IMG/VR virus record: IMGVR_UViG_3300020202_000175
Coordinates: 1-33,552 of that record
Source of the DNA: a virus
Direction: 5' to 3' (one strand)
DNA length: 33,552 nucleotides
This document shows, one piece after another, positions 13,014 to 33,198 of this stretch. Below the pieces are notes generated by a model. That model was not told where the DNA came from, made no database searches, and worked only from the letters and a program-made list of their open reading frames with translations. Position 1 is the stretch's first letter. The number at the start of each line of letters is the position of its first letter. Made by a program: the position numbers and the translations under genes.

Positions 13014-13094
13014 GAGGCAGGCCGGGCGCAACTTCCGGCTAAGTGATGCTGGGTACCTGTCAGCACGCGTGTCCGCTTTCCACGCCGCTGCCTC
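13014..13094 (+). repeat. Cloverleaf-like structured element, copy C
   Basis: The 81-base element is closed by GAGGCAG (13014-13020) and CTGCCTC (13088-13094). Inside are three hairpins: GCCGG/CCGGC (13021-13039), TGCTG/CAGCA (13047-13065) and GCGTG/CACGC (13067-13085). A related copy on the minus strand at 33198-33062 has the same closing arms and the same first and third hairpins almost base for base, with a different middle arm. It lies between the minus-strand gene and the scaffold gene. It is tRNA-shaped but lacks a T-loop consensus and a CCA end. Confidence 0.6.
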
Positions 13095-13097
13095 CAG

Positions 13098-13126
13098 TTG
13101 AGTTTCTACACCGAAACACCTGAAAT
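13098..13126 (+). promoter_or_regulatory. Candidate promoter for the scaffold-capsid operon
   Basis: TTGAGT (13098-13103) and TGAAAT (13121-13126) are 17 bases apart; each matches four of six sigma70 consensus positions. The pair sits right after element C and about 65 bases before the scaffold ATG, in the only large plus-strand gap of the virion block. Expression of capsid genes from here is plausible but untested. Confidence 0.35.
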
Positions 13127-13191
13127 CCTCAAAGGTTTTTCACCAAGCCTCCCGGACACATCAACCGGAACGGCGCAACCCCCAAGGACCA

Positions 13192-14322
13192 ATGGAAAAC
13201 GACCTGAACGCTGGCGCAGAGCCGGCGAACGAGACCTCTTTGCGCGACATGCTGAGCGCTGAATACACGCGTCAGACAACCGAGACGCCGGCAGTTGTGG
13301 AAACGCCGGCCATCGCATCGGATGAGCCCCAGGACGGGCGCGCACGCGATGAGAAGGGCCGCTTCGCGCCGAAGCCGGGCGAAGCGCAGGTCGAGGAACC
13401 GAAAGAGGCAGCGGAAACCGCAAAGCCGGCGAAGGCCGCCGAAAAGGCAGACGAGCCCGTCGAGCAGGAAGAGGACAAGCCCGCCCGCCGCGTCGGCCCG
13501 CCTCCCGGTTGGTCGGTCGCTGCGAAAGCCGCCTTTGACGAGCTTCCTGCCGAGGTGCAGGCCGCCGTCGCAAAGCGCGAAGAGGAAATCGATCGCGGCT
13601 TCGCCAAGCTGAAGGAATACAAGGAACTCGAAAAGACGCTGGAGCCGTACAAGCGGACGGCGCAGCAATACGGCGCTGACATTCCGCAGCTGCTGGACCG
13701 CTTCATCAAGTCGGACAACTTCCTTCGGCGCGACCCGAAGAATGCGCTGCTCTGGCTCGCCAAGGCGTACAATTTCGATCCGCGCGAACTGGCCGGAGTG
13801 CCAGCCCAGCCGCAGGGCCAGCCGAAGCAGAACGGGATGGACCCGGCTCTGGCTCCGGTCGTCCAGCCGCTCGTGCAGGAGATCAACAGCCTGAAGGCAC
13901 AGCTCGCCCGCGTCGATGGAATCGAGCAGGCGCTGTTCCAGGACAAATACAATTCGGTTCTCGGTGAGATCGAGCGCTTCGGCTCCGATCCCAAGAACAA
14001 GTTTTTCGAGGACGTTGCCGATCAAATGGCAGTCCTTATCGAAGAGGCCAAGGCCAAGAAGCAGCAGATCGATCTCAACACGATTTACGAGACTGCCTGC
14101 TACATGAATCCGGAAGTCCGCGGCGCGCTCATCAAGGAGACGCTGACGACCCAGGAAAAGGCCAGGGCCGCGAAAGCCAAGACAGCCGCCGATCAGGCGC
14201 GGCAGGCAGGCGCCTCTATCACCGGAGGAGCAGCAGCAACCACGCCGCTCGCTTCTTCAAACCCCGACAACCTTCGCGCCCAACTGGAACAGGCTTACGC
14301 TGACCAGATCGGGCGCGTCTGA
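13192..14322 (+). CDS. Capsid scaffolding (assembly) protein
   Basis: The 376-residue protein lies directly before the major capsid gene and has the composition of a scaffold. There is an acidic, Ala/Glu/Lys-rich disordered N-terminal third (with RARDEKGRFAPKPGEAQVEE, a common scaffold-type motif), long helices with LDRFIKSDNFLRRDPKNALL and VQPLVQEINSLKAQLARVDG, and a C-terminal basic/helical tail that usually contacts the coat protein. The start ATG 13192 has AAGGA at 5 bases. It would guide procapsid assembly and then leave or be cleaved; no protease gene is seen nearby. Confidence 0.83.
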   Translation: MENDLNAGAEPANETSLRDMLSAEYTRQTTETPAVVETPAIASDEPQDGRARDEKGRFAPKPGEAQVEEPKEAAETAKPAKAAEKADEPVEQEEDKPARRVGPPPGWSVAAKAAFDELPAEVQAAVAKREEEIDRGFAKLKEYKELEKTLEPYKRTAQQYGADIPQLLDRFIKSDNFLRRDPKNALLWLAKAYNFDPRELAGVPAQPQGQPKQNGMDPALAPVVQPLVQEINSLKAQLARVDGIEQALFQDKYNSVLGEIERFGSDPKNKFFEDVADQMAVLIEEAKAKKQQIDLNTIYETACYMNPEVRGALIKETLTTQEKARAAKAKTAADQARQAGASITGGAAATTPLASSNPDNLRAQLEQAYADQIGRV

Positions 14323-14340
14323 CCATAAGGAACCAAAGAT

Positions 14341-15312
14341 ATGGCTTCGCCCAATCTTTCCGAACTGGTCACGACTACGCTCCGCAGCCGGACAGGCAAA
14401 CTCGCGGACAACGTGACCAAGAACACCGCCCTGCTCAGGCGCCTGCGTGAGCGCGGCAAGGTCAAGCCCGTCTCGGGCGGCCGCACCATCGTCCAGGAAC
14501 TCAACTACGCTGAGAATGGCACCTACATGCGCTATTCCGGCTACGAGCCCCTTAACATCTCTCCCTCGGACGTGTTCACCGCGGCCGAGTACGATTGGAA
14601 GCAGGCTTCTGTCGCGGTGACCATCAGCGGTCTTGAGCAGATTCAGAACGCCGGCCCCGAGCGCATCATCGATCTGCTCGAAGCGCGCATCACCAACGCC
14701 GAAGAGACCTTCATCAACAACCTCTCCGGCGACTGCTATTCCGATGGCACTGCAGACGGCGGCAAGCAGATCGGCGGCATGCAGCTTCTGATCGCCGACA
14801 ATCCGGCGGTCGGCACGGTCGGCGGCATCAACGCTGCTACCTGGAACTTCTGGCGCAACATCGCCTTCAGCTCGGCGACGGACGGCGGTGCCCCGGCATC
14901 GACGGCCAACATCCAGTCCTTCATGAACCGCATCTGGACCCAGCTCGTCCGTAACCAGGACCAGCCGGACCTGATCGTGGCCGACAACAACTACTGGCGG
15001 CTCTATCTCGAAAGCCTCCAGGCCATCCAGCGCATCACCGCAATCACCGAGGCATCGGCGGGCTTCCAGTCGCTCAAGTACATGACGGCTGATGTCGTGC
15101 TCGACGGCGGCTTCGGCGGCGCGGCGCCTGCGGACCACATGTACTTCCTCAACACGAAGTACCTGTTCTTCCGCCCGTCGCGTGAGCGCAACGTTGCGGT
15201 CGAGGATGGCGATCGCGTGCCCGTCAACCAGGACGCGATAGTCAAAATGCTGTTTTTTGCAGGCAACATGACTGTCAGCAACCGGCGCCTCCAGGGCGTG
15301 CTGAAGGCCTGA
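14341..15312 (+). CDS. Major capsid protein
   Basis: The 323-residue protein follows the scaffold gene, the usual order. Its N-terminus (MASPNLSELVTTTLRSRTGK) and the segment LLRRLRERGKVKPVSGGRTI followed by VQELNYAENGTYMRYSGYEP fit an HK97-fold coat protein without a long cleaved delta domain. Later, DLIVADNNYWRLYLESLQAI resembles the A-domain/spine part of such proteins, and the C-terminus carries LFFAGNMTVSNRRLQGVL, typical for capsids of this group. It builds the icosahedral shell. Codon use is biased towards C-ending codons, in keeping with high expression. Confidence 0.92.
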   Translation: MASPNLSELVTTTLRSRTGKLADNVTKNTALLRRLRERGKVKPVSGGRTIVQELNYAENGTYMRYSGYEPLNISPSDVFTAAEYDWKQASVAVTISGLEQIQNAGPERIIDLLEARITNAEETFINNLSGDCYSDGTADGGKQIGGMQLLIADNPAVGTVGGINAATWNFWRNIAFSSATDGGAPASTANIQSFMNRIWTQLVRNQDQPDLIVADNNYWRLYLESLQAIQRITAITEASAGFQSLKYMTADVVLDGGFGGAAPADHMYFLNTKYLFFRPSRERNVAVEDGDRVPVNQDAIVKMLFFAGNMTVSNRRLQGVLKA

Positions 15313-15340
15313 GTAAAGCCTTTCAACCTCATGCATTAGG

Positions 15341-15348
15341 AAAGGAGG
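15341..15348 (+). promoter_or_regulatory. Near-perfect ribosome binding site
   Basis: AAAGGAGG lies 6 bases before ATG 15355 and is the strongest Shine-Dalgarno in the capsid block. It implies very high translation of the small downstream protein, as expected for a decoration protein needed in copy numbers near that of the capsid protein. Confidence 0.75.
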
Positions 15349-15354
15349 CAAACC

Positions 15355-15624
15355 ATGCCTTCCACTTACGCAACAGACGGCAAGATCGCCGACTTCAAGG
15401 CTCGCTCGCTCACGCCCGAATTCAAGCTCGGCACCGTGGCGATCGGCGACCAGGACACTGCCTGGATTTACGTCGTGGCGGATGTCGCCGTGAACGCTGC
15501 CCAGGCGCCTGTCATGTCGGCGGCGTTCCACCTGACGGCGGCCACCGGCGGCACGATGACGGCCGACACTGCTTTCGCCATTGGCGAATACGGGTGGGTT
15601 CGCAAGACCGCGGCCTTGGTCTGA
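15355..15624 (+). CDS. Putative capsid decoration protein
   Basis: The 89-residue, beta-rich protein directly follows the major capsid gene and has an excellent ribosome site and a terminator immediately after it. It reads MPSTYATDGKIADFKARSLT then strands such as DTAWIYVVADVAVN and GTMTADTAFAIGEYGW. Size, place and expression signals fit a decoration or head-stabilising protein that binds the outside of the shell. The sequence itself is not one I can assign to a named family, so the role is inferred. Confidence 0.7.
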   Translation: MPSTYATDGKIADFKARSLTPEFKLGTVAIGDQDTAWIYVVADVAVNAAQAPVMSAAFHLTAATGGTMTADTAFAIGEYGWVRKTAALV

Positions 15625-15648
15625 CGCAGACCTGAACAGCGAAACATT

Positions 15649-15675
15649 GGGGGCGGCTTACGGGCCGCCCCCTTT
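15649..15675 (+). terminator. Intrinsic terminator after the capsid/decoration genes
   Basis: GGGGGCGGC (15649-15657) and GCCGCCCCC (15664-15672) form a perfect 9-base stem with a 6-base loop, followed by TTT and C. The T-run is short, so termination may be partial. That would make capsid and decoration messages more abundant than the downstream tail messages while still allowing read-through. Confidence 0.75.
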
Positions 15676-15699
15676 CATCCAATCAAACGGAGAAACATC

Positions 15700-16374
15700 A
15701 TGGCCAAGGGCCTAATCGCGGAATTCTTCATCGATGCGGTACACATGACCGCGCTATCGGAGAAGGAGGGCCGCCCGATCTTCGAGGATCGCGAATTCAT
15801 CAGGATCATCCCCATCGGGGACAACAAGACCGAAGTGGTCAAGGAAGCGACCGACGAAATCAGGCAGCGCTTTGCCGAGGAATACGGCGTCTTCAAGCGC
15901 GGCGCTGGCCAGACCTTCAGCGGCACGCCGCTGAACCAGTGGCCCGTCATGACGCCGGCCCAGATCAAGCAGTTCAACCATTTCAACGTCTATACGGTCG
16001 ATCAGCTCTCGGACCTGGATGACATCGCCATCAACAGGGTCGGCCCTGGGACGCGCGACTGGGTGGAGAAGGCCAAGGCGTTCCTCGTTCACGCGAAAAA
16101 CTCGGCCGATGCGCAGAAATTCGCGGCGGAGAACGAGCGTCTGAAGGACGACATGGCGCAGCTTCGCGCAACCGTCGCCCAGCTTTCGAAGCACATCGAG
16201 GACAAGGCTACGGGCGGCAATGGTGAGTCACGCGACGCAATCGAGAGCGCCGAACTGCGCAAGATCGTCGCCAGCCAGACTGCGACCATTGCCGAACTGA
16301 GGGCCGGGCAGACGGGCGAGCCCGCGCGCCGCGGTCCTGGCCGTCCACGCAAAGATGAGCAGGCGGCGGCCTGA
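15700..16374 (+). CDS. Virion-region protein with coiled coil and AT-hook-like tail
   Basis: The 224-residue protein starts behind a clear ribosome site (CGGAGAAA). Residues 1-130 are a mixed globular domain (IAEFFIDAVHMTALSEKEGR, DREFIRIIPIGDNKTEVVKE). A passage reading LDDIAINRVGPGTRDWVEKA resembles a helix-hairpin-helix. Residues 135-205 are heptad-like (ENERLKDDMAQLRATVAQLS), and the C-terminus RRGPGRPRKDEQAAA contains GRPRK, the core of an AT-hook that binds the minor groove of AT-rich DNA. It lies between the decoration protein and the head-tail adaptor. It may be a minor head protein contacting packaged DNA, but no family is recognised. Confidence 0.75.
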   Translation: MAKGLIAEFFIDAVHMTALSEKEGRPIFEDREFIRIIPIGDNKTEVVKEATDEIRQRFAEEYGVFKRGAGQTFSGTPLNQWPVMTPAQIKQFNHFNVYTVDQLSDLDDIAINRVGPGTRDWVEKAKAFLVHAKNSADAQKFAAENERLKDDMAQLRATVAQLSKHIEDKATGGNGESRDAIESAELRKIVASQTATIAELRAGQTGEPARRGPGRPRKDEQAAA

Positions 16375-16399
16375 TACTCGATAAGCCGGAGGCCGGCCC

Positions 16400-17122
16400 A
16401 TGGCCATGAACGCCCTTCAGGTCATCCAGAAGGCGATCAAGCTGACATCTGTGACTGAGGCTCCCTCAACCATCGAGGGCAACTCTGATCCGCAGGTCGT
16501 CAATCTGGTCGCTATTCTGTCGGACGTTGGTCAGGACCTCTATTCCCGGCATCCGTGGAACACGCTGGGCAAGAGTTTCGCCTTCACATCGAATGGAGGC
16601 AATCCCCAGCAGCAGCCAATCCCATCCGACTGGCAAACCTCCTATCCGAATGCGTCGGTGTGGCGATCGGGTTCGCTCATGTATCCGCTCTCCGGGCCCG
16701 TTCCTCCGGACATCTGGCATCGGCTGCTTGTAGTACCTGGCATCCGCTTCCCTGGGTACTGGAGGCAATATGCGGGAAACCTCGAAATCATTGGGGCGCC
16801 GGCAGACGAAATCGTGACGCTCGAATATGTCCGCAATGGATGGGTGATCGATCCGGACACGGGAGACGCAAAACGCGAAGTCACCAAGGACAATGATACG
16901 TTCCTGCTCCCCGACAGGCTGTTGAGCCTCGGTTGCATCTGGAACTGGCGTTCCACGAAGGGGCTGAGCTACGCCGAGGAGATGGCTACCTTCGAGCGGG
17001 AGCTTGAGCGCCAAATCGCAGCCGACAGAGCGGCGCGGCCGATTTCCACCACGTGGTTCACGCGGCCGGACGCGCCGTGGTTCGCGTGGCCTGGTCAGAT
17101 TGTTCCCGGAGTCGTTTCGTGA
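16400..17122 (+). CDS. Head-to-tail adaptor protein (tail tube/adaptor type)
   Basis: The 240-residue protein precedes the nozzle-like gene, as the adaptor does in T7- and P22-like phages. The N-terminus (MAMNALQVIQKAIKLTSVTE) and NLVAILSDVGQDLYSRHPWN match the helical bundle that binds the portal ring. The aromatic passage WHRLLVVPGIRFPGYWRQYA and LPDRLLSLGCIWNWRSTKGL, then YAEEMATFERELERQIAADR, are typical of podoviral adaptor proteins, where 12 copies extend the portal channel. GGAGG sits 9 bases before ATG 16400; ATG 16406 is a second possible start. Confidence 0.83.
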   Translation: MAMNALQVIQKAIKLTSVTEAPSTIEGNSDPQVVNLVAILSDVGQDLYSRHPWNTLGKSFAFTSNGGNPQQQPIPSDWQTSYPNASVWRSGSLMYPLSGPVPPDIWHRLLVVPGIRFPGYWRQYAGNLEIIGAPADEIVTLEYVRNGWVIDPDTGDAKREVTKDNDTFLLPDRLLSLGCIWNWRSTKGLSYAEEMATFERELERQIAADRAARPISTTWFTRPDAPWFAWPGQIVPGVVS

Positions 17123-17124
17123 GG

Positions 17125-19065
17125 ATGCCCGTGCAGTCGGTGGCCACCATGCGGCCACCGGCACAATACGCAGTCCGCAGGCGTACCAACGTAAAGCTGT
17201 TCCCTGCGCCGATCGGTGGGTGGATCGCAAATCGCAGCCTTGCCATCCCCAGCGGGCCGGGATTGCCCCCGGGCGCAGCTGTGCTGGAGAACTGGTTCCC
17301 CACCGCCTCGCGGGTCGTCATGCGAAGGGGCAGCGCACTCTACGCAACGCTCGGCCTCGGCGACGAAGCCACCAAATCATTGTTCTCCTACAAGAACGGC
17401 CCGCAGGAGGAATTGTTCGGGGCGACCGACACCGACATCTACGACATCACCAGCGTTGATACGCCATTCAACTACATGCTGGAGACGGACACCGGGGATG
17501 TGCTGGTCACCGATACCGGCGACACGTTCGGACAGGACTCGACCACGGAGCTTGCGGTTGTCACCGGCCAGACCAACGGCGATTGGGTCGTCCTGCAATT
17601 CGCCACGAGCGGCGGGGTCTATCTCGTCCTCGTCAACGGCACCGATCCTGAACTGCTTTATGACGGAACGAACTGGTATCCGATCGGCGACACTCCGATC
17701 ATGGCGCTCAACTACGACGCCGAGACCGTGGCCTTCGTAGTCGGTGGGACGCTCACCGGCGGTACTTCTGGCGCGACCGCGGAGATTCTGAAGGTCATCG
17801 ACAACGGCACGACCGGGACCCTCTGGATAAGGGATGTGACCGGCACCTTCCAGAACAACGAGACGATTACCGGATCGCTGGGCGGGTCCGCTACGTCTGA
17901 TGGCGTTGCGTCGCAGTTGGCGCCCGGAATCACGGGCATAGCCACCAACCTGTTCAGCTATGTGTGGAGCTACAAGAACCGGCTGTTCTACGTCGAAAAG
18001 GACAGCCTCAACGCCTGGTATCTCGCTACCGACGCCGTTGGCGGAGCGGCCACGAAATTCCCGTTGGGCGGGATATTCCAGCGCGGCGGCTCGCTTGTGT
18101 TCGGCGGCACATGGTCGCTCGACTCCGGTTCGGGTGGTTCCGGTCTATCGCAGCAATGCGTGTTCGTGACCTCGGAAGGAGAGATCGCGGTCTATCAGGG
18201 GACCAACCCCGGAGATGCAAATGATTGGTCGCTTGTTGGCGTGTACCGCATCGGCAAGCCGCTTGGAAAACAGGCGCATTTCCGCGCAGGCGGTGACATG
18301 GCGATTGCGACCGATATCGGTCTGTTGCCTCTCTCGACTGCGGTTCAGCGTGATTACGCCGCGCTGTCGCCGAGTGCGATTTCGTTCTCGATCGAGGATG
18401 CGTGGAATGCAGAGGTTCAGGCGCGCGCTGGACTGGCGGAATGGCATTGCGAGGTGTGGCCGTCCGCTCAGATGGTCATCGTCACCCTCCCGACAGTCAA
18501 TGAGCGTCGCCCGACCTGGTTCGTAGCCAACGCCCGGACGGGAGCGTGGGCACCGTTCATTGGCTGGGACGCCAACTGCCTTGAGATTTTCCAGAACCGA
18601 TGCTTCTTCGGATCTCAGGATGGCCGGGTAGTCGAGGCCAACATCACCGGACAGGACGAAGGCGTGCCATACACGGCCGCTTGTTCGCCTTTGTTCGATG
18701 ATCTCGGGGCGCCGAGTGCACTGAAGATCGCAGAAATAGCGCGCGCCGTCATTCGCAGCAAAGGCGAGCCTCGCGAGAAGATATCGATCCTTCGAGAGTT
18801 CGATGAGGCGCTTCCAGCCGCCCCGGATACCGCAATCGTCAACGATTCGTCGGCATGGAACGTCGGCGTCTGGGGCGAAGCCGAAGGCGCGGCTGTATGG
18901 GGGGAGATCACGCCGCTCCGCACTTCGCAGCCGTGGCGAGTGGTTGACGGCCACGGTTACGTCATGTCGCCGTGCGTCCAAATCACCAGCGGGTCGATTG
19001 TTCCTCTCGATGCAGAACTGATCCGCACCGAGCTGGCCTTTGAAACGGCCGATCAGATCACATGA
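17125..19065 (+). CDS. Tail nozzle-like structural protein
   Basis: The 646-residue product starts at ATG 17125, two bases after the adaptor stop; ATG 17149 is an alternative. The frame upstream lies in the adaptor gene and is ignored. The early segment KLFPAPIGGWIANRSLAIPS, then LENWFPTASRVVMRRGSALY, followed by repeated beta blades (YKNGPQEELFGATDTDIYDI, YVWSYKNRLFYVEKDSLNAW), is the pattern of podoviral tail-tip nozzles built on a beta-propeller, comparable in place to T7 gp12 or P22 gp10. Residues about 235-290 look like an inserted Gly/Thr-rich beta domain. It overlaps the GNAT gene by four bases. Confidence 0.8.
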   Translation: MPVQSVATMRPPAQYAVRRRTNVKLFPAPIGGWIANRSLAIPSGPGLPPGAAVLENWFPTASRVVMRRGSALYATLGLGDEATKSLFSYKNGPQEELFGATDTDIYDITSVDTPFNYMLETDTGDVLVTDTGDTFGQDSTTELAVVTGQTNGDWVVLQFATSGGVYLVLVNGTDPELLYDGTNWYPIGDTPIMALNYDAETVAFVVGGTLTGGTSGATAEILKVIDNGTTGTLWIRDVTGTFQNNETITGSLGGSATSDGVASQLAPGITGIATNLFSYVWSYKNRLFYVEKDSLNAWYLATDAVGGAATKFPLGGIFQRGGSLVFGGTWSLDSGSGGSGLSQQCVFVTSEGEIAVYQGTNPGDANDWSLVGVYRIGKPLGKQAHFRAGGDMAIATDIGLLPLSTAVQRDYAALSPSAISFSIEDAWNAEVQARAGLAEWHCEVWPSAQMVIVTLPTVNERRPTWFVANARTGAWAPFIGWDANCLEIFQNRCFFGSQDGRVVEANITGQDEGVPYTAACSPLFDDLGAPSALKIAEIARAVIRSKGEPREKISILREFDEALPAAPDTAIVNDSSAWNVGVWGEAEGAAVWGEITPLRTSQPWRVVDGHGYVMSPCVQITSGSIVPLDAELIRTELAFETADQIT

Positions 19066-19535
19066 CGGTCGTCTGGGGACTGCAGGACCCGCAATTGAAC
19101 GAGGCAATGGGGCGGTGGCTTCAGGCCAAGCTCTGCCTGCCCCAGCCGTTTCGTGAGCCGTATGTGTGCATGGGCCTGTTCGAAAACGACCAGAAGCTGA
19201 TCGCGGTGCTGATGCTGGAAAACTACCGCTCGCGCGATGGCACGGTGGAGATTGGCGGCGCTGCAGACAAGCCGAAGTGGCTCACGCGCGGCGTGATGTC
19301 GGATTTGGCCGACTACGTGTTCCGGAAGCTCCGCTGTCAAATGGCAGTTTTCCGGGTGCCCGAGAGAAACACCCATGTCTGCGATGTGTTGAAGCGTGCC
19401 GGCATGGAATGCCTCGTCATTCCCCGGCTGCGAGGCCGGCACGAGGCCGAGTTCTTTTTCATGATGACAGATGACGCATGGGACCAACATCCCATGAACC
19501 GTAAGCGAGGTGGCTATGCCGTCCGATCCTCCTGA
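19062..19535 (+). CDS. GNAT-like acetyltransferase-fold protein in the virion block
   Basis: The 157-residue product has the GNAT layout: a strand-rich N-terminal half (FRE-PYVCMGLFENDQKLIAVL then EIGGAADKPKWLTRGVMSDL), a central helix (LADYVFRKLRCQMAVFRVPE) and the late RNTHVCDVLKRAGMECLV segment, equivalent to the family's motif B. The Q/R-x-x-G-x-G/A acetyl-CoA loop is not clear, so catalysis is uncertain. In T7-like phages a GNAT-fold protein (gp13) sits at the same place after the nozzle, acting in assembly of the ejection machinery. The ATGA overlap with the nozzle gene couples their translation. Confidence 0.75.
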   Translation: MTVVWGLQDPQLNEAMGRWLQAKLCLPQPFREPYVCMGLFENDQKLIAVLMLENYRSRDGTVEIGGAADKPKWLTRGVMSDLADYVFRKLRCQMAVFRVPERNTHVCDVLKRAGMECLVIPRLRGRHEAEFFFMMTDDAWDQHPMNRKRGGYAVRSS

Positions 19536-25516: not shown

Positions 25517-25535
25517 CCTTTGGAGTATTCAGACA

Positions 25536-26336: not shown

Positions 26337-26361
26337 GCACCCATCCAGAAACGCACGTCCG

Positions 26362-26384
26362 CCGCCCTTTGAGGGTGGTTTTTT
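26362..26384 (+). terminator. Intrinsic terminator upstream of the repeat-bearing fibre gene
   Basis: CCGCCC (26362-26367) pairs with GGGTGG (26373-26378, one G-T wobble) around loop TTTGA, followed by six T residues. It ends 2-3 bases before the GGAG ribosome site of the next gene (ATG 26397), again placing the terminator within a leader. Confidence 0.7.
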
Positions 26385-26396
26385 GTTGGAGCAAAT

Positions 26397-27941
26397 ATGG
26401 CCAACATCCGCATCAATAACCTGCCTCCCGAGCCCAATCCGCAGCCCACAGATGTTGTGCCGATCGATGGCGCAACCACGCGGAAGGCGACCCTCGCTGC
26501 CGTGGCGACTTCGGTAAGGCCATTCGCTTCTCAGGCGGAAGCGGAAGCCGGTGTTGACAACACCAAAACCATGACCCCGCTGTCATCCGCCCAGGCAATC
26601 GCGGCGATCGGCGGTGGCCTTTTTGCCACGACCACACAGGGAGCGAAAGCGGATACCGCCGTTCAGCCCACGCGCCAGGTCAACACCGGGACTGGGCTGA
26701 CCGGCGGTGGCGACCTCTCGGCGAACCGCACGATTGAATTGAATGCTGCCAGCATCGCATCCCTGGCGAAGGCGGATACTGCGGTTCAGCCGAGCCGTAC
26801 CATCTCGGCCGGGACGGGCTTGACCGGCGGCGGCGATCTGTCGGCGAACCGGACACTCTCGGTTGATCCGAACGTGCTGGCCGCCACGCTGCCAGTCGGC
26901 GGGGCTACGGGCCAGACACTCCGCAAAGCGTCCAATGCCGACTACGACACCGAATGGAGCAACCCGCCCGGCGGCGGCGACATGCTCGCCTCGGTTTACG
27001 ACCCGACGAACGTCGCGGCGGATGCCTTCAACCGGACGAATTTCCACGGCATTACGCCAATCAGCGGTGGTGGGACTGGCGCGTCGTCCGCGGTCGGCGG
27101 CTTTGACGCGCTCGCGGCCCGCGGCTCCGATGTCCCAACGGCCGCGACGCTCAATCTCGACAGCGCAAACGCGCCAGTAGTGGATCTCACGGGATCGGTC
27201 ACTGTCACGGCGGTAACCCTGACCTCTGGGCGTTGGCGCATCGCGCGTGCCGCAGGCGCTTTCCAGATCACGGCCGGCGCTTCGCTCATCGTCAACGGAT
27301 CGGTGTCCGTCAGCTTCACGACGATCGGCGGCGATTTGTTGCTGTTCCAAGGCTATGCCGCGGGCGTCGTTCGCGTTTGGCTGATCGGCAATTCGGGCCG
27401 AAGCATTTTGCCAGGGCTTGGTACTGCCGGGCAACTGCTCAGAGTCAACAGCAGCGGCTCGGCGCTTGAGTATGGGGCGAACATCACCCTTGCTACGCCC
27501 CAGGCTACCACCTCCGGCACAGGCGTCACGTTTTCCAGCATCCCAGCGTCGGTCAGGCAGATTGCCATCAACTTTTCGGGCGTTTCCGTCAGCGGCACCG
27601 CCAATCTTTTCATACAGATTGGCGACGCAGGAGGGGTCGAAGGCAGTGGATACCTGGGCTCCGGCAACTTCAACGGGGGTACCGCGACCAACTTCACATT
27701 AGGGTTTGGTGTCGTGAGCGCGACCGCCGCCAACGTCATCCACGGAACTGTGTTTCTCACGCTCATTGATCCATCAGCCAACACGTGGGCCGCATCCGGC
27801 ACATTGGCGATATCCAACTCAGCGGGCGTCATAAACGTGGCCGGCACGAAGTCGCTTAGCGCCATACTTGATCGCGTGTTCATAGCACCGGGCGGGGCCG
27901 ACACGTTCGACGCCGGTAGCATCAACATCGCATATCACTAG
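26397..27941 (+). CDS. Tail fibre protein with internal sequence repeats
   Basis: The 514-residue product has a short helical N-terminal anchor (MANIRINNLPPEPNPQPTDV, then KATLAAVATSVRPFASQAEA). It is followed by two copies of a 32-residue repeat at about 84-115 and 125-156, sharing KADTAVQP and GTGLTGGGDLSANRT; this repeat is widespread in phage fibres. A long Gly/Ala/Ser/Thr/Val beta shaft and tip follow, with a DITP-like ISGGGTGASS linker (a common knob-joining motif). The C-terminal 170 residues (TSGTGVTFSSIPASVRQIAI onward) look like a beta-sandwich receptor-binding tip. The start has GGAG 6 bases before ATG 26397. It is a second type of fibre in this genome. Confidence 0.87.
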   Translation: MANIRINNLPPEPNPQPTDVVPIDGATTRKATLAAVATSVRPFASQAEAEAGVDNTKTMTPLSSAQAIAAIGGGLFATTTQGAKADTAVQPTRQVNTGTGLTGGGDLSANRTIELNAASIASLAKADTAVQPSRTISAGTGLTGGGDLSANRTLSVDPNVLAATLPVGGATGQTLRKASNADYDTEWSNPPGGGDMLASVYDPTNVAADAFNRTNFHGITPISGGGTGASSAVGGFDALAARGSDVPTAATLNLDSANAPVVDLTGSVTVTAVTLTSGRWRIARAAGAFQITAGASLIVNGSVSVSFTTIGGDLLLFQGYAAGVVRVWLIGNSGRSILPGLGTAGQLLRVNSSGSALEYGANITLATPQATTSGTGVTFSSIPASVRQIAINFSGVSVSGTANLFIQIGDAGGVEGSGYLGSGNFNGGTATNFTLGFGVVSATAANVIHGTVFLTLIDPSANTWAASGTLAISNSAGVINVAGTKSLSAILDRVFIAPGGADTFDAGSINIAYH

Positions 27942-27953
27942 GAGACATCCCCG

Positions 27954-28295
27954 ATGCATCTGGCAGTGATGTCATGGGACGCAGCGACTCTTCGCGTCAC
28001 CAAATGGGCTCGGTTCGATACGCAGGGCGAGGCGGCGGCGCATGTCGCGGCTCGCGCCGGGCAATACCCCGAAGCCTTTGCGGTTGAGTACAACGGCCCG
28101 CTCCAGGCAGCGATTGTTGATCCCATCGCCAAAACGGTTTCGGTCGGCTCCTTGCCACAGCCTGACATCGATGCCGCGACGAACGGCGACGCCCTTCGCG
28201 AACGCCAGCGCGCCGAGAAGAAGGCGCATGCCCTTTCCCTGATCGCTCAGGGGAAAACTGAGGAAGCAATGAAGGAGCTATTGGAGTTGATCTGA
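27954..28295 (+). CDS. Small protein of the second fibre cassette, possible fibre chaperone
   Basis: The 113-residue product follows the fibre gene after 12 bases, with GGAGA before ATG 27954. The first half is mixed (WDAATLRVTKWARFDTQGEA, then PEAFAVEYNGPLQAAIVDPI). The second half is a charged helix (ALRERQRAEKKAHALSLIAQ, then KTEEAMKELLELI). This plan of a small beta domain plus a long C-terminal helix is common for fibre-assembly helper proteins encoded after their fibre, but I recognise no specific family. It is separated from the next small gene by one base. Confidence 0.68.
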   Translation: MHLAVMSWDAATLRVTKWARFDTQGEAAAHVAARAGQYPEAFAVEYNGPLQAAIVDPIAKTVSVGSLPQPDIDAATNGDALRERQRAEKKAHALSLIAQGKTEEAMKELLELI

Positions 28296-28296
28296 C

Positions 28297-28602
28297 ATGG
28301 CACACATTCGATATGATGCCTCGACGGCCGGCGGCCAGCTTGTCGCAATAGCGACGGCGAAACTGCTCGGTGCGATCGAGGACTTCCGCAACCTGAAGGG
28401 TATGGTCGATCAGGTTGGCAACATCGGCGGGTCCTTTTCCGCCACCAACTTCCAGTCCGGCAACAATGTCGTGTTTGCAGTGGATGCGGCCGACTGCCAG
28501 GCTTTCAACGATCAGGTGTCGGCGATCGACACGGCCTTGTCGGCGATGCTCGCCGATGACGGCAATGAAGGACGCATCTACAGCCTTTTCCAGGCTGGCT
28601 AA
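28297..28602 (+). CDS. Small hypothetical protein ending the second fibre cassette
   Basis: The 101-residue product begins MAHIRYDASTAGGQLVAIAT and reads as helix-rich (LLGAIEDFRNLKGMVDQVGN) followed by a mixed region (GNNVVFAVDAADCQAFNDQV). It starts one base after the previous stop with GGAG about 11 bases upstream. The composition is that of a small soluble protein. No family is recognised; the location suggests association with the fibres or the tail. Confidence 0.65.
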   Translation: MAHIRYDASTAGGQLVAIATAKLLGAIEDFRNLKGMVDQVGNIGGSFSATNFQSGNNVVFAVDAADCQAFNDQVSAIDTALSAMLADDGNEGRIYSLFQAG

Positions 28603-28612
28603 GCGGACCCGA

Positions 28613-28672
28613 CAGGAGCGTGCACTCCTGCCGAGCCCTAACCCTCACGCGCCTTGCGGTGCGTTCAGGCTC
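28613..28672. other. Hairpin pair in a convergent intergenic gap
   Basis: Two folded units fill most of the gap between the fibre cassette and the opposing thermonuclease gene: CAGGAG/CTCCTG around a 6-base loop (28613-28630), and GAGCC/GGCTC (28633-28672) enclosing a 7-base stem ACGCGCC/GGTGCGT with loop TTGC. No T-run follows on either strand. The pair may end transcription from both sides or protect the 3' ends of the convergent messages. Confidence 0.4.
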
Positions 28673-28705
28673 CCATCAGTTTCCAACGGCCATCCTTCGA
28701 AGCGG

Positions 28706-29080
28706 TTAACGGCACCAATCATTCTTGGCGTGTGGCGACCAGATCACCGCAAGGCTCTCCTCGATAAGGATGCTTTCGGCAGTTCGCCCATCCGGCATCT
28801 TGACGCGCACTAACGGGCGCCTGTGCTTGTCGCTCACACCCGAATGCTCAATGACGACTCCCGGCTTTGATATCAGCTCGGTGAGCCGCGCCTTGGCCTT
28901 CTTGGCAAGGATGCGCTCGCGATCACAACGGGCCTTTCTAAGTTCCGGGGTATCGATTCCGGATTTGTAGGGGATGCCGTCGCCAAGCAGGCGCATGAGC
29001 TGCCCATCGCAGCGGATAGTATCCCCGTCCACAACGGCCAAAGACCAACAGGATAGAACCAGCGCGGCGGCAGTCAGCAT
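28706..29080 (-). CDS. Thermonuclease (SNase)-like protein with N-terminal export signal
   Basis: The 124-residue minus-strand product carries the staphylococcal-nuclease pattern: VVDGDTIRC (residues 16-24), R30 in MRLLG, E46 in GIDTPE, and R87/R88 in DKHRRPLV. These correspond to the catalytic Asp/Arg/Glu/Arg set. The first 15 residues (MLTAAALVLSCWSLA) are hydrophobic, so the protein is probably exported to the periplasm. There is a short insertion (DGIPYKS) between the LLG and GIDTPE motifs. The missing acidic C-terminal extension and the small size are usual for phage and plasmid relatives. It may degrade DNA or RNA outside the cytoplasm. Confidence 0.75.
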   Translation of the reverse strand: MLTAAALVLSCWSLAVVDGDTIRCDGQLMRLLGDGIPYKSGIDTPELRKARCDRERILAKKAKARLTELISKPGVVIEHSGVSDKHRRPLVRVKMPDGRTAESILIEESLAVIWSPHAKNDWCR

Positions 29081-29109
29081 CCGGCGACCATATCAGCCCT
29101 GCGCAAAGC

Positions 29110-29298
29110 CTAGCCGTAGGAAATCTTGACCGTGCCTTCGGTAAAGATGGGATCGACCTCTAGTTCGTCGCCCTTCTCGTTCCGGACGCGGTAGGTTGGT
29201 CGGCCGGGCTGTGAAGTAGCAACGACGCGCTCGCTCTTCTCGATGAAATCGGCCAGCGGATCGACAATCTTGATGGTTTCGAGGGCGCTGTTGGTCAT
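29110..29298 (-). CDS. Small hypothetical protein on the minus strand
   Basis: The 62-residue product begins MTNSALETIKIVDPLADFIE and continues with RVVATSQPGRPTYRVRNEKG and DELEVDPIFTEGTVKISYG, a compact beta-rich pattern. ATG 29298 has AAGG 7 bases before it. A longer frame in another reading frame spans the same DNA but looks random and is rejected. It is likely transcribed with the downstream thermonuclease gene, 29 bases away. It diverges from the lysis cassette across a 94-base gap. Function unknown. Confidence 0.6.
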   Translation of the reverse strand: MTNSALETIKIVDPLADFIEKSERVVATSQPGRPTYRVRNEKGDELEVDPIFTEGTVKISYG

Positions 29299-29392
29299 TC
29301 GCGAACCTTAACATAACGCGCTTAGCGGCGCAAAGCCCGCACACTTTCGCACCCCATCAACGACTCTGCCGGAAACGGCGGAAGGAGAACGC

Positions 29393-30148
29393 ATGGACCT
29401 TTCATTCAAGGGCCGCGCAAAGCGCATTGACGACATCGACCTTCCGAAACTCGGCCACCGCATGGGAGTCGGTGAGGATGAGCTGCACGCTTTCATCGAT
29501 GCCGAGACGCGCGGAACAGGCTTCGATTCCGAGGGTCGCCCGCGCATCCTTTTCGAGCGGCACAAGTTCTTCAAGTACGTCCCTGCGGCAAAGCGAGCTG
29601 AGGCGATAAAGGCGGGCCTCGCCAGTCGTCTGGCGGGCGGCTACGGCAAGGAAAGCGAGCAGTACGGCAAGCTACTCCGCGCGATCGCCATCGACAAGAC
29701 GGCAGCGCTGTTTTCCTGCTCGTGGGGCCTCGCCCAGGTCATGGGCTTCAACCACAAGGCGGCTGGCTACACCTCGGTTGAGGAGATGGTTGCCGCGTTC
29801 ATGGATGACGAGGAAGAACACCTCGAAGCCGCGGTCAACTTCATCCTCTTCAACAAGCTGGACGATGAGCTTCGCGCCCACAACTGGGCCGCGTTCGCCA
29901 AGGGCTACAACGGCGAGAATTACCGCATCAATCGGTACGACGAGAAGCTCGCGGAAGCTTATGTTAAGTGGAAGCGCATCAAGGACACGGCCTGGTCGCC
30001 CAACGCCGTCGAGCCTCCCAAGCCCCCCATCCCCCGCCCGGATGACGAGCCAGACCCGATTGCGGTCGAGCCTGATGCCGCGCCGACCAAGCGCGGCCTT
30101 TGGGCCTTCATCAAATTCCTCTTCAACGAACTCTTCGGAAGGAACTGA
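29393..30148 (+). CDS. Endolysin: N-acetylmuramidase (DUF3380 type)
   Basis: The 251-residue protein fits the N-acetylmuramidase family: LHAFIDAETRGTGFDSEGRP holds the catalytic Glu (38), SWGLAQVMGFNH (110-121) is the conserved mid-domain motif, and AAFAKGYNGENYRINRYDEK near 180 closes the domain. It cleaves the peptidoglycan glycan strand for host lysis. A Pro-rich linker (about 208-225) leads to an amphipathic or membrane-binding tail (GLWAFIKFLFNELFGRN), which is unusual for an endolysin and could tether it at the membrane. AAGGAGAA precedes ATG 29393. It heads the lysis cassette. Confidence 0.88.
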   Translation: MDLSFKGRAKRIDDIDLPKLGHRMGVGEDELHAFIDAETRGTGFDSEGRPRILFERHKFFKYVPAAKRAEAIKAGLASRLAGGYGKESEQYGKLLRAIAIDKTAALFSCSWGLAQVMGFNHKAAGYTSVEEMVAAFMDDEEEHLEAAVNFILFNKLDDELRAHNWAAFAKGYNGENYRINRYDEKLAEAYVKWKRIKDTAWSPNAVEPPKPPIPRPDDEPDPIAVEPDAAPTKRGLWAFIKFLFNELFGRN

Positions 30149-30150
30149 CC

Positions 30151-30549
30151 ATGGCGCAGAAAGCATCCCTCATCGGTGGCGTCATCGTCACCACCATCCT
30201 CGAAAAGGTGCTCGACAAGGTGCTGAACAGGGTGGCGGCCAGCCCGCACCTGTCGCTTGAGAAAAAGGACGTGGACGCCGTTAAGGAGGTCATCGTCAAG
30301 GAGGTCAATCAGGAAGTCGAGGCCCGCGACAAGTTCGCCACCAACAGCGAGCCGGCGCACAAATCGCCGGTCACGGTCGGCTCGACCACAACGGTTATCG
30401 GCTCCATCCTCATGCTCTGGACCGTGTTCCAGGACGGTGCGCTGTCGGCTGACGAGCAGGTGTTCGCAGCCAGTGCCATTGCCACGCTCATGGGCGCGCT
30501 CTTTGCCCTGTGGGGCCGCTGGATGGCGAAGAAGCCGCTCGGGGAATGA
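30151..30549 (+). CDS. Putative holin-type membrane protein
   Basis: Start ATG 30151, 2 bases after the endolysin stop, with GGAAGGA upstream; an upstream ATG at 30100 is inside the endolysin gene. The 132-residue product has a charged, coiled-coil-like N-terminal half (EKKDVDAVKEVIVKEVNQEV) and two hydrophobic segments near the C-terminus: STTTVIGSILMLWTVF (about 74-89) and QVFAASAIATLMGALFALWG (about 99-118). The size and topology are like holins with two membrane spans and a long cytoplasmic lead. It is probably one of two membrane proteins controlling endolysin action. Confidence 0.68.
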   Translation: MAQKASLIGGVIVTTILEKVLDKVLNRVAASPHLSLEKKDVDAVKEVIVKEVNQEVEARDKFATNSEPAHKSPVTVGSTTTVIGSILMLWTVFQDGALSADEQVFAASAIATLMGALFALWGRWMAKKPLGE

Positions 30550-30550
30550 C

Positions 30551-30850
30551 ATGAGCCCGCGGCTCGTCCTGATCATCCTAATCGCCGCCGCGATCCTGTG
30601 CGGGGTCATGGCGGCCACTACGGCTCAGGAGCAGCGGCCGGGCTGCGCCCCGGAAAAGGAGTTTGTCGAAACGCTCCAGAGGCAATTCAACGAGTTCCGC
30701 GTCCTCGACCTCGACCTCAAAACCGCGCGCGGGAAATTCACCATCACTCGCTCGACCAAGGGGACGTGGACGATCCTCGCCGTTGAGGGGGAGGACTATG
30801 CCTGCATCTTTGCCGCGGGCGAGACCAGTGTCGTGGACCGAGGCATCTAG
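30551..30850 (+). CDS. Small secreted protein of the lysis cassette
   Basis: The start is ATG 30551 (GGGGA 7 bases upstream). The 99-residue product has a signal peptide of about 25 residues (MSPRLVLIILIAAAILCGVM, then AATTAQEQ). The mature part contains PGCAPEKEFVETLQRQFNEF and KGTWTILAVEGEDYACIFAA with GE after it. Cys in a short helix and the late GTWTI...ACxxAAGE motif form a pattern of small periplasmic proteins common in alphaproteobacteria and their prophages. The two cysteines may form a disulfide. It could be a spanin-like or regulatory periplasmic component; there is no catalytic evidence. Confidence 0.7.
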   Translation: MSPRLVLIILIAAAILCGVMAATTAQEQRPGCAPEKEFVETLQRQFNEFRVLDLDLKTARGKFTITRSTKGTWTILAVEGEDYACIFAAGETSVVDRGI

Positions 30851-30851
30851 A

Positions 30852-31028
30852 ATGAACGGGCCAATCATGGACAAGATCACCGCGGGGGTGGCGGCCGGCG
30901 CCGTAGTGTCGCCTTGGTGGTTGCCGGCCATCAAGGCGGTTTCAGACGGCGCTTCGATCGTTCTGCCAATACTCGGGTGCCTCTGGCTCCTCGTGCAGAT
31001 GGTCGCCTTCTTCCGGGGGCGCAAGTAG
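30852..31028 (+). CDS. Small holin-like protein
   Basis: The 58-residue product starts at ATG 30852, 1 base after the previous stop. It is MNGPIMDKITAGVAAGAVVS, then PWWLPAIKAVSDGASIVLPI, followed by LGCLWLLVQMVAFF and a basic end (RGRK). One or two membrane segments with a short basic tail, next to an endolysin, is the usual signature of a small phage holin. Similar small proteins with SPWWLPAI followed by a hydrophobic helix occur in alphaproteobacterial phages. Which of this protein and the earlier membrane protein sets the timing of lysis is unclear. Confidence 0.68.
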   Translation: MNGPIMDKITAGVAAGAVVSPWWLPAIKAVSDGASIVLPILGCLWLLVQMVAFFRGRK

Positions 31029-31031
31029 CGC

Positions 31032-32048
31032 ATGGGAACCCGCCCACTGGCAGACGACAAGAAGCAGGCCGCGCTTGATGCGCTCCAGAAACACGGTTCA
31101 CCCGCCGCAGCATACAAGGCGCTTGGCCTTCCCAAGACAACTTTCGAGCATCATCTGCGAGAGGCCCGCAAGGCTGGCATGTCCCCAACAGTCGAGTTCC
31201 CCGAGTTCGTCACGGAAGGCGATGAAGAGGAGCCGATAGACGAGTTGCTCGACCGCATCCGCAAGGCCTCAGACCGCAAAATCAAGGCCGCGGAAGCCCG
31301 CCGCTGGTTCCCGATCAAGATCCATGAGGATAAGCCTTACGGCCTGCTCTGGTTCGGCGATCCTCACCTCGGCAACGGCAATCAGCGCCTCCTCGACCGC
31401 CATCTGACCGTCGCACGACAAGAGGGCATTTACGGGGCAAACATCGGCGACACCACGGACAATTTCCCGTGGACCGGCAAGCTCGCAAGGCTGTGGGCAG
31501 AGACGGAATTATCGTCCAAATCCGAACGGCGCCTGGCTTCTTGGTTCATGTTCGAAGCCGGCGTGAAATGGCTGGTCTGGCTGCTCGGCAATCATGATGC
31601 CTGGAACGGCGGAACCGAGTTCTACAAGATGCTCGGGGCTCACCATGTCCCGGTGATCGACTGGCGGGCACAGTTCACCATCGTTCACCCGAACGGCTCC
31701 AAGGTGGCTGTGGACGCCGCACACGGGCGCAAGGGCACGTCGATCTACAACCCGACCCACGGCACGCTGCGGGACGCGAAATTCGGCGAGCACGCAGATT
31801 TGTTCGTGTCCGGGCACATCCACACCTTCGGGCTCTTCCGTATCGAGTTCCCGGAGAAGAAAACGCTTACCTGGCTGGCTCAAATCGCCGGCTACAAGTC
31901 GATTGACGACTTCGCTTGGACGAAGGGTTTTCATCCCGCGGAACACGGCGCGGCGATGCTCGCCATCATCGATCCGGAGACGGCCAAGGTCCAGTGCTGG
32001 GAAGACCCGGAAGAGGGCGCTGAATATCTGAAGTGGAAGCGGCGCTGA
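31032..32048 (+). CDS. Phage metallophosphoesterase with N-terminal helix-turn-helix
   Basis: The 338-residue product has all metallophosphoesterase motifs: GDPH (109-112), GDTTDN (139-144), GNHDAW (186-191), AHG (230-232) and SGHIHTFG (260-267). These bind two metals in a calcineurin-like core. The N-terminus (residues about 12-46; KQAALDALQKHGSPAAAYKA then LPKTTFEHHLRE) is a helix-turn-helix of the kind seen in phage proteins, suggesting DNA targeting. Residues 60-100 are an acidic/basic linker. Its substrate could be DNA ends, nucleotides or phosphoproteins. It starts 3 bases after the holin-like gene and begins the last plus-strand gene set. Confidence 0.87.
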   Translation: MGTRPLADDKKQAALDALQKHGSPAAAYKALGLPKTTFEHHLREARKAGMSPTVEFPEFVTEGDEEEPIDELLDRIRKASDRKIKAAEARRWFPIKIHEDKPYGLLWFGDPHLGNGNQRLLDRHLTVARQEGIYGANIGDTTDNFPWTGKLARLWAETELSSKSERRLASWFMFEAGVKWLVWLLGNHDAWNGGTEFYKMLGAHHVPVIDWRAQFTIVHPNGSKVAVDAAHGRKGTSIYNPTHGTLRDAKFGEHADLFVSGHIHTFGLFRIEFPEKKTLTWLAQIAGYKSIDDFAWTKGFHPAEHGAAMLAIIDPETAKVQCWEDPEEGAEYLKWKRR

Positions 32049-32161
32049 AGTGGCTCTACTTCGGCTGGTTCTGCCTCTCGACGTGGCTTGCCCAGAGGAT
32101 GGCGGCGAGCTTGGTGGTGAACCTCATCAGTTCCTTTCGCGGGGCGGTCCATGCCGCCTGA
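32033..32161 (+). CDS. Possible 42-residue membrane microprotein
   Basis: From GTG 32033, within the end of the phosphoesterase gene, an open frame reads MEAALKWLYFGWFCLSTWLA, then QRMAASLVVNLISSF, and stops at TGA 32159-32161. The hydrophobic, Trp-rich segment looks like a transmembrane helix, and the frame fills the gap between two genes. There is no good ribosome site; the call rests on the membrane-like pattern and the position. It could be random. Confidence 0.3.
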   Translation: MEAALKWLYFGWFCLSTWLAQRMAASLVVNLISSFRGAVHAA

Positions 32162-32204
32162 TCCTGACTTCGCCGTCGAAACATTCGGACCACTGGAGAC
32201 CTAC

Positions 32205-32510
32205 ATGCCCGACATCAAGGCAGAGATTGCGGACGAGGCAAAGGCTATCGTCGCTGGAGCTCGACGCAGCGCATATGGCACCCCGGAGAACAACTTCGAG
32301 CGGATCGCGCGGTTCTGGGAGGTCTACTTCATCAATACGGGGCGCCCTGTACGGATCAAGGCTGCCGACATCTCCCCGCTGATGCGGCTGATGAAGGAAG
32401 CCCGGCTGTGCGAGACGCCGGATCATCGCGACAGCTTCGTGGACCTGATCGGCTACACGCTGACTGGCGCCGAAGTGAACGGTCTTCGCCCAAAGGACGC
32501 TGCGCAATGA
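32205..32510 (+). CDS. DUF6378-like protein
   Basis: The chosen start is ATG 32205, which has GGAGA 6 bases upstream; an in-frame ATG at 32151 would add 18 residues (MPPDPDFAVETFGPLETY) but has a weak ribosome site. The product begins MPDIKAEIADEAKAIVAGAR, followed by RSAYGTPENNFERIARFWEV. This Ala-rich helix plus YGxPxxNFxRIAxxW pattern is the DUF6378 signature, a helical domain found in many phages, often fused or adjacent to nucleotide-related genes. The rest (IKAADISPLMRLMKEARLCE, then HRDSFVDLIGYTL) completes the domain. It may resemble the MazG-type all-alpha pyrophosphatases; this relation is a guess. Confidence 0.78.
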   Translation: MPDIKAEIADEAKAIVAGARRSAYGTPENNFERIARFWEVYFINTGRPVRIKAADISPLMRLMKEARLCETPDHRDSFVDLIGYTLTGAEVNGLRPKDAAQ

Positions 32511-32857
32511 AGGTCTACGTCGCTGGCCCGATGCGCGGCATCCCCGAGTTCAATTTCCCCGCCTTCAACGCTGCGACCGCTAAGCTCCGCGCTGAGGGGC
32601 ATACCGTGTTCAACCCGGCCGAGCGCGACAACGAACGCCACGGAAAAGACATCTCGAAAGGCAATGCTGACGGGTGCGAAGAGCGCGCTGCCAAGGATCA
32701 CGGTTTCTCGCTGCGTGAAGCGCTGGCCGACGATACGGCGTGGATATGCCGCGAAGCTGACGCCATTGCGCTCTTGCCTGGCTGGGAGAACAGCAAGGGC
32801 GCTCGCGCTGAGCTGGCTCTTTCCGAAGCGCTCGGGCATTCCGTCATCTACTTGTGA
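32507..32857 (+). CDS. DUF4406 protein (nucleoside deoxyribosyltransferase-like fold)
   Basis: The 116-residue product starts with an ATGA overlap of the previous stop. It opens MKVYVAGPMRGIPEFNFPAF, with the strand-AGPMRG loop of the DUF4406 family, and ends DTAWICREADAIALLPGWEN followed by KGARAELALSEALGHSVIYL. This is the Rossmann-like plan of nucleoside 2-deoxyribosyltransferase relatives, where the D/E and the LLPGWExSxGAxAEL motif lie at the active site. The substrate is unknown; it may modify or salvage nucleotides, in line with the neighbouring DUF6378 and phosphoesterase genes. AAAGGA precedes the start by 9 bases. Confidence 0.85.
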   Translation: MKVYVAGPMRGIPEFNFPAFNAATAKLRAEGHTVFNPAERDNERHGKDISKGNADGCEERAAKDHGFSLREALADDTAWICREADAIALLPGWENSKGARAELALSEALGHSVIYL

Positions 32858-33061
32858 CGGGCCGGCGGGCCGGAAAATCCCCGAACGGTGAAATCTGAGC
32901 CAACCGACCGTCAAATTGACTGGTCGGTGATATTGCCGAGAGGCGAGAGAACGGCGGGAAGGAAATCACCCCCGAAACCCTTGTAACACAAGGGGTTGAT
33001 CCTCGTAAATAGGCCAAAAACGGGCTTGAGGAAATCACCCAATTTTGCTACAAGAATCCAT
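32858..33061. other. Non-coding stretch with palindromes and short direct repeats
   Basis: With element D this is a 339-base gap without a convincing gene. It holds GGGCCGG twice in tandem (near 32859-32873), a near-perfect 26-base palindrome (32903-32928), an 11-base direct repeat GGAAATCACCC (32961-32971 and 33030-33040) and a hairpin CCCTTGT/ACAAGGG with loop AAC (32978-32994). Open frames here look random. The cluster fits a regulatory, replication or attachment region; which one cannot be told from the sequence alone. Confidence 0.45.
32903..32928. promoter_or_regulatory. 26-base near-perfect palindrome (candidate operator)
   Basis: ACCGACC and GGTCGGT are outer arms (7 bases each), with an inner GTCAA and TTGAC around a single A; one T is unpaired. 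Total arm pairing is 12 base pairs per side. It lies in a gene-free stretch after DUF4406. The symmetry resembles a binding site for a dimeric repressor. Confidence 0.45.
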
Positions 33062-33198
33062 GAGGCAGCGGCGTGGAAAGCAGACACGCGCAACCATCTC
33101 CGAGTCGGGATCGTGGTATCCATTCCACGGCGGGCTACAGGGTTCGGCACTGTCGGAGAACTCAAGGCCGTCAGCCGGAGTCGCGCCCGGCCTGCCTC
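33062..33198 (-). repeat. Cloverleaf-like structured element, copy D
   Basis: Read on the minus strand, the 137-base element has the closing arms GAGGCAG (33198-33192) and CTGCCTC (33068-33062), a first hairpin GCCGG/CCGGC and a third hairpin GCGTG/CACGC, as in copy C. The 28-base 3' block GCGTG...CTGCCTC differs from copy C at one base. Its middle arm is longer and itself branched: TCTCCGA (33159-33153) pairs with TCGGAGA (33103-33097), enclosing ACAG/CTGT and CGTGG/CCACG hairpins. It begins on the stop codon of the DUF982 gene. Confidence 0.6.

Follow-up and report, generated by a model that had tools for sequence, protein, structure and literature searches.

The IMG/VR virus record IMGVR_UViG_3300020202_000175 was analyzed over its whole stretch of 33,552 bases (the window), which carries tailed-phage genes including those for terminase, portal, and major head protein. 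Two dispersed elements in the window, C (positions 13014–13094) and D (33062–33198), are probably two genes of one phage-borne family of trans-acting structured noncoding RNAs, as judged from sequence comparison. The C/D family is a structured noncoding RNA by the general criterion that compensatory base changes exceed those in controls. An earlier note on this DNA had described C and D as a conserved outer frame with an exchangeable middle arm and had offered two readings, a structured RNA of modular build or a mobile palindrome carrying cargo. Covariation, an excess of G-U pairs in one strand, context-dependent promoters at the closing helix (P1), and clean arm replacement within conserved flanks strongly favor the modular RNA.

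Elements C and D in the window

The two elements were located in the sequence at the coordinates, and on the opposite strands, given in the earlier note. The direction of reading was the reverse of the one first described: the G-U pairs and the sigma70-like promoters described below place the RNA strand of C on the minus strand and that of D on the plus strand. In the RNA sense the order is P1, a CG linker, the P2 hairpin GCGUG-GAAAGCAGA-CACGC, the variable arm, the P4 hairpin GCCGG-AGUAGCGC-CCGGC, and then P1' without a linker. The features of the two elements are as follows.

13103..13132, minus: predicted sigma70-like promoter of C; -35 TTGAGG (13132-13127), 18-nt spacer, -10 TAGAAA (13108-13103)
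13014..13094, minus: element C, whole frame plus minimal arm, 81 nt (P1 taken as 7 bp); covariance model R1
13088..13094, minus: C P1 5' strand GAGGCAG, pairing with 13014-13020; from the sequence, in a helix that covaries across the family
13067..13085, minus: C P2 hairpin GCGUG-GAAAGCGGA-CACGC; loop nearly invariant across the family
13040..13066, minus: C variable arm, 27 nt, simple hairpin
13021..13039, minus: C P4 hairpin GCCGG-AAGUUGCGC-CCGGC, adjoining P1' without a linker
13014..13020, minus: C P1' CUGCCUC; from the sequence
33026..33054, plus: predicted sigma70-like promoter of D; -35 TTGAGG (33026-33031), 17-nt spacer, -10 TACAAG (33049-33054)
33062..33198, plus: element D, whole frame plus 84-nt arm, 137 nt (P1 taken as 7 bp); covariance model R1
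33062..33068, plus: D P1 5' strand GAGGCAG; from the sequence, in a helix that covaries across the family
33071..33089, plus: D P2 hairpin GCGUG-GAAAGCAGA-CACGC
33090..33173, plus: D variable arm, 84 nt, internal fold uncertain
33174..33191, plus: D P4 hairpin GCCGG-AGUCGCGC-CCGGC
33192..33198, plus: D P1' CUGCCUC; from the sequence

The GCGTG/CACGC hairpin is common to C and D with a single base change in its loop, just as the earlier note had it. The closing stem GAGGCAG/CTGCCTC is likewise present in both, but its length was put too low at 7 bp: the P1 of C has 8 bp, and that of D has 9 bp and extends over 33060-33200. The GCCGG/CCGGC hairpins have identical stems, but their loops differ (C, 9 nt; D, 8 nt). 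The middle arm of C is the simple hairpin that had been proposed, but the 7-bp inner stem assigned to the arm of D is not significant; a stem like it occurs in 14.6% of shuffled arms, and it is missing from the minimum free energy fold.

A BLAST search of C against the entire record returned D as the sole match, in two pieces that are the two halves of the frame (97% identity over 29 bases, E 4.5e-9; 93% over 27 bases, E 1.5e-5). Covariance model R1, which was trained without C and D, gave 79.8 bits for D (E 2.8e-16) and 52.1 bits for C (E 4.4e-10), with no third copy in the window. The folding energies of the single copies are unremarkable (z about -1). The case therefore rests on comparison, that is, on covariation across the family.

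A covarying frame in phages of Pseudomonadota

Lack of further homologues had been named as grounds for rejecting the idea, and the frame was found in more than 250 distinct elements, mainly in tailed-phage contigs and prophages of Pseudomonadota. Exact patterns served as the seed of the family, and the collection scans give lower bounds. A 20-base pattern from the shared hairpin matched at least 119 viral-contig stretches and 34 contigs in a set of bacterial genomes with one genome per species; fuller extraction gave 253 elements. The earlier note had pointed to Rhizobiales as the group to search. The family is not limited to that order: the genome-contig matches named alpha-, beta-, and gammaproteobacteria and single metagenome-assembled genomes or species of Planctomycetota, Acidobacteriota, and Bacteroidota. 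Large proteins encoded next to the genome-contig elements matched phage families in 6 of 10 tested cases, and prophage status is not confirmed for every contig. The frame was not found in complete Escherichia coli genomes, nor with the strict pattern in any of 369 genomes of the class of the Comamonas genome, and the covariance model detected it in 3 of 384 others in one class of Alphaproteobacteria. This rarity in random host genomes argues that it is not a resident cellular RNA. A BLAST search of named phages with the C region gave no match. Usually there is one element per phage; about 5 of 41 viral records hold two or three copies, and the prophage of Comamonas sp. B21-038 has two. In a Burkholderiaceae genome two family elements lie in direct tandem (G002:C7:508955-509224).

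The frame loops GAAAGCAGA and NGUAGCGN are nearly invariant. With exact patterns as the seed, the best measure of loop conservation is a set anchored on P4 alone, and a P4-only pattern, unconditioned on P2 or P1, was searched to avoid circularity. A matching P1 and a P2-like hairpin accompanied 112 of the 125 untruncated matches, and 91 of these had the loop GAAAGCAGA. The P2 stem in the P4-anchored set varies with compensation (GCGUG/CACGC, GCGCU/AGCGC, GCGGG/CCCGC, and GCACG/CGUGC). Covariation was measured in 62 diverse members. Standard pairs fill 95.2% of cells, and double-sided changes occur at 16 of the 20 frame pairs, including all 10 pairs of P1. There are 282 double-change cells compared to 83 in shuffles and 54–68 in slid versions, and the covariation score is 0.581 compared to 0.127 for shuffled and at most 0.11 for slid alignments. 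Base changes thus preserve the stems; changes that break them were another outcome by which the earlier note would have been overturned.

The strand was determined with members selected by Watson-Crick pairing alone. Non-Watson-Crick frame pairs read in the RNA sense are G-U in 52 cases and A-C in 20 (39 vs 18 in P1; 13 vs 2 in P4). This asymmetry bears on the second reading of the earlier note, a mobile DNA palindrome with cargo (a REP/RIME repeat, a miniature inverted-repeat transposable element, or an IS200/IS605-type hairpin) whose structure matters as DNA. Such an element would fit the unrelated intergenic sites and the exchanged arms, but it would not favor G-U over A-C variants in one strand, and the strand-specific promoter at P1, found mainly where it is needed, also speaks against it. 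The copies per phage are few; P1 varies between sites yet stays complementary, without a conserved terminal sequence; and related phages keep the frame and differ in the arm. A mobile palindrome is therefore very improbable, and the variable P1, low copy number, and strand asymmetry also set the family apart from REP/RIME/IS200-type palindromic repeats.

Promoters and genomic context

Across the family a sigma70-like promoter lies upstream of P1. Its -10 element most often ends 6 nt before P1 starts, which puts the predicted start of the RNA at the first base of P1. The window agrees with this placement: the predicted start of C (~13096-13095) is the first base of its 8-bp P1, and that of D (~33060-33061) is the first base of its 9-bp P1. 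With gene calls and promoter scores from simple home-made scripts, and hence approximate, the promoter score exceeds 5 in 61% of the elements antisense to both neighbors (n = 36; mean 5.1, shuffled -0.1) compared to 8% of those sense to both (n = 107). An element carried on an operon transcript needs no promoter of its own, whereas an opposed element has one, and this pattern is the signature of a gene for this RNA strand. Both window elements have a promoter; the site of D is convergent, and C runs opposite to the structural genes.

The same data bear on the idea that the elements are cis-acting leaders, such as riboswitches, attenuators, or put-like processive antitermination RNAs that start phage transcripts. 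Among the 184 scored elements, 58% are co-directional with both neighbors, the Orimi01 element heads an early operon, and the predicted transcript starts exactly at P1, all of which speaks for a leader. However, the best promoters belong to the 36 elements that are antisense to both flanking genes, and the gene next to D converges on it. A wide gap separates the elements from the next gene (median 170 nt), and no gene family recurs downstream. A leader function is improbable on these grounds. The HK022 put RNAs consist of two small hairpins in phage early transcripts. The C/D hairpins differ in standing on either side of a variable arm and within a closing helix, and numerous C/D elements run opposite to the genes around them.

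The elements are intergenic, with 15 of the 184 scored falling inside called genes. No neighboring gene is conserved (the commonest family occurs in 4 of 130 downstream and 3 of 130 upstream positions), and no linked protein partner was found among these 130 upstream and 130 downstream neighbors. Several elements are close to genes for repressors, integrases, or recombination in temperate phages. Ochrobactrum phage POI1126, like the window (C), has an opposed element between the portal and capsid genes, and in Pseudomonas phage Persinger promoter, element, and terminator form a compact unit. The tract that follows P1 contains little G; its commonest reading is ACC or ACT, but it is not fixed.

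The variable arm

The arm ranges from 27 to 198 nt (median 79 in 251 elements) and is hypervariable, forming 224 similarity clusters in the 251 elements. Loci with near-identical flanks and the same P1, P2, and P4 carry unrelated arms: L040 compared to L055 and L128 (Comamonas type), L014 and L053 compared to L028 and L230 (Pseudomonas), L126 compared to L150, and L052 compared to L117. The boundaries of exchange are the frame hairpins, and replacement is wholesale. One Pseudomonas arm lineage, the one with enough members, opens with an H-type pseudoknot that has near-fixed loop lengths and a conserved ACCUGAA. Both of its stems covary, one as GCGC/GCGC, CAGC/GCUG, GAG/CUC, and GAC/GUC, and the other as CUCCG/CGGAG, GGGCG/CGCCC, and GUCGCA/UGCGAC. 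Arm homologues outside the frame were not found in 249 genomes of the Pseudomonas viridiflava family, apart from one partial match, and the arms showed no motif enrichment (GGA for CsrA-type decoys, Shine-Dalgarno or anti-Shine-Dalgarno).

An arm that varies within a constant frame could also supply the pairing specificity of an RNA-based immunity system or a regulatory antisense RNA. The phage P1/P7 C4 and P4 CI immunity RNAs are small prophage RNAs with their specificity in a variable part. In favor of this, many C/D elements belong to temperate phages, and a repressor or integrase gene is close to some of them. However, the arms are no more complementary to their own locus (at most 14 kb) than to other phages' loci (mean longest match 10.3 compared to 10.1, p = 0.89). 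In the window, the one phage searched whole, no exact match to the arm of C reaches 10 bases, and that of D has matches of 11–12 bases only. The C/D family also differs from C4 and CI in that Rfam returned no match to such families. Antisense or immunity function is unlikely in light of these comparisons, which cover the surroundings of each element and the whole window.

Relation to known RNAs

No match to C or D was found at the gathering threshold with Rfam 15 (4227 models including ribozymes, riboswitches, GOLLD, and ROOL), and searching the D region to E 10 returned noise alone. At 20 further loci the gathering threshold yielded tRNAs only, one of them inside an arm, and at 12 loci searched to E 2 there was no convincing family over the frame. 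The conserved strings occurred in no open-access PubMed Central (PMC) paper; subscription papers and preprints outside PMC were beyond that search. The C/D family is probably a new RNA class. We know of no RNA precedent for a frame that stays invariant while the arm inside it is hypervariable and exchangeable.

The nearest in kind are GOLLD and ROOL, which are also structured RNAs of phages and prophages without a known protein partner. In GOLLD the 3' part is conserved and the 5' part less so, and the linker sometimes contains a tRNA (PMC12286853). These RNAs differ from the C/D family in that they are hundreds of nucleotides long and form cages, whereas the C/D frame is ~56 nt plus the arm and has no Rfam match. 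In YrlA-type bacterial Y RNAs, the partners of Ro60, a stem closes a modular, sometimes tRNA-like, domain. The C/D family differs in having two conserved hairpins flanking the variable module; Y RNAs, compared via Rfam only, gave no match, and no Ro protein is among the recurrent neighboring families.

The plan also resembles that of tRNAs and viral tRNA-like structures, and degenerate or atypical tRNA genes were weighed as an explanation. The topology is cloverleaf-like: a closing stem, a 2-nt linker, a D-like arm, a variable arm in the place of the anticodon arm, and a 5-bp T-like arm (P4) stacked on P1 without a linker, with A-C-C or A-C-T commonest after P1. A T-arm is present in 8 of 182 distinct arms (~4%; seven have all five pairs) compared to 0.35 expected, and the arm of L100 scores 31.7 bits with RF00005. 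The differences are that the loops GAAAGCAGA and NGUAGCGN stand in place of the D- and T-loops, P1 usually has 8–9 bp, and CCA is not fixed. The earlier note had set the elements apart from ordinary tRNAs; in agreement, ARAGORN and Rfam detect no tRNA at C or D, and ARAGORN at its default threshold finds none in any of the 182 arms. Element-bearing phages are not linked to tRNA carriage, with tRNA genes in 11 of 37 compared to 14 of 38 in the comparison set. That the elements are degenerate or atypical tRNA genes is highly unlikely, and reading the arm in general as a tRNA was rejected, the T-arm being confined to a minority. The arms of L087 and L160 share a TTCGATT T-arm hairpin with a covarying stem (CTGGG/CCCAG vs CAGGG/CCCTG), followed by a shared AACGATAA.

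A possible role for the RNA

The structured, trans-acting RNA would begin at the 5' base of P1. An element co-directional with the phage genes usually lacks its own promoter and would have to be cut from the operon transcript, and one that opposes them has its own promoter. P1 may protect the RNA ends. Across phyla it is the loops, not the stems, that stay invariant, and the RNA is not accompanied by any particular phage gene, so the loops probably bind a host component conserved across host phyla. The arm, the fastest-changing part and one that is exchanged whole, is therefore probably a payload under diversifying pressure, as in conflicts with host defense or rival phages, and would most likely bind a fast-changing host or competitor target. 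The frame may thus be a chassis, read by a host factor conserved across phyla, that displays payloads swapped like cassettes in phage-host and phage-phage conflict; we regard this as a serious possibility, if somewhat less than even. Our preferred guess for the payload, a tentative and rather doubtful one, is a decoy against RNA-directed defense, for which the pseudoknots and tRNA-like arms would be candidates.

Several observations weigh against the overall reading of the family as genes for a trans-acting RNA with a payload arm. Intrinsic terminators are not enriched downstream of the elements, so the 3' end must be made by processing or in some other way. On average, arm folding exceeds that of shuffles only a little (mean z -0.45); the exchangeability claimed in the earlier note was borne out, but the arm it called still base-paired is hypervariable, with pairing weakly above chance on average. 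Complementarity of the arms to their own locus (at most 14 kb) is not enriched, and no target was found for any arm.

Present in phages of several bacterial phyla, apparently outside RNA family databases, and absent from the open literature searched, this structured RNA would be a new class among the noncoding RNAs of viruses. The family may expose a host factor exploited by many phages and offers a ready-made natural RNA scaffold. If true, the chassis would be the RNA counterpart of modular anti-defense or toxin cassettes.

Neighboring loci and genes

In relatives of Persinger (Mica, Mano, HeidiAbel_Bas97, MQ-4, PT1, Arya, and KA2-1) different structured-looking sequences occupy the equivalent spot, between the integrase and SprT-like/SSB genes (L341-L347), some of them with strong terminators. 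The annotation of Mica at this spot reads 'tRNA-OTHER'. The spot is possibly a hotspot for small RNA genes.

A second phage hairpin, GCCGGAGACGTAACCGGC, has a 5-bp stem and an 8-nt loop like P4, but the loop is AGACGTAA. A variable hairpin, for example GGCGGTGAAAGCCCGC, precedes it. It occurs in at least 120 viral-contig stretches and adjoins the present element twice (L024 and L105). No Rfam family was found over this hairpin region at the Bas97 locus. The hairpin is possibly a sister RNA family. Its sites are as follows.

L343, ~750-790
L346, ~690-770
L024, 3053-3070
L105, 1898-1915
L350-L437

A 68-amino acid open reading frame (ORF; 12791-12997, minus) without a Pfam match immediately follows C on its strand and is opposed to the structural genes. 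Homology of this small ORF to POI1126 gp07, which has the same position, was considered and is not supported. An 81-amino acid ORF (33197-33442, minus) is convergent with D, and its stop codon overlaps the outer end of D's P1'. At 1017-1277 (plus) the window carries three tandem tRNAs (Pro, Arg, and Gln), and directly 3' of them is an RtcB-type RNA ligase gene (1264-2622, plus).

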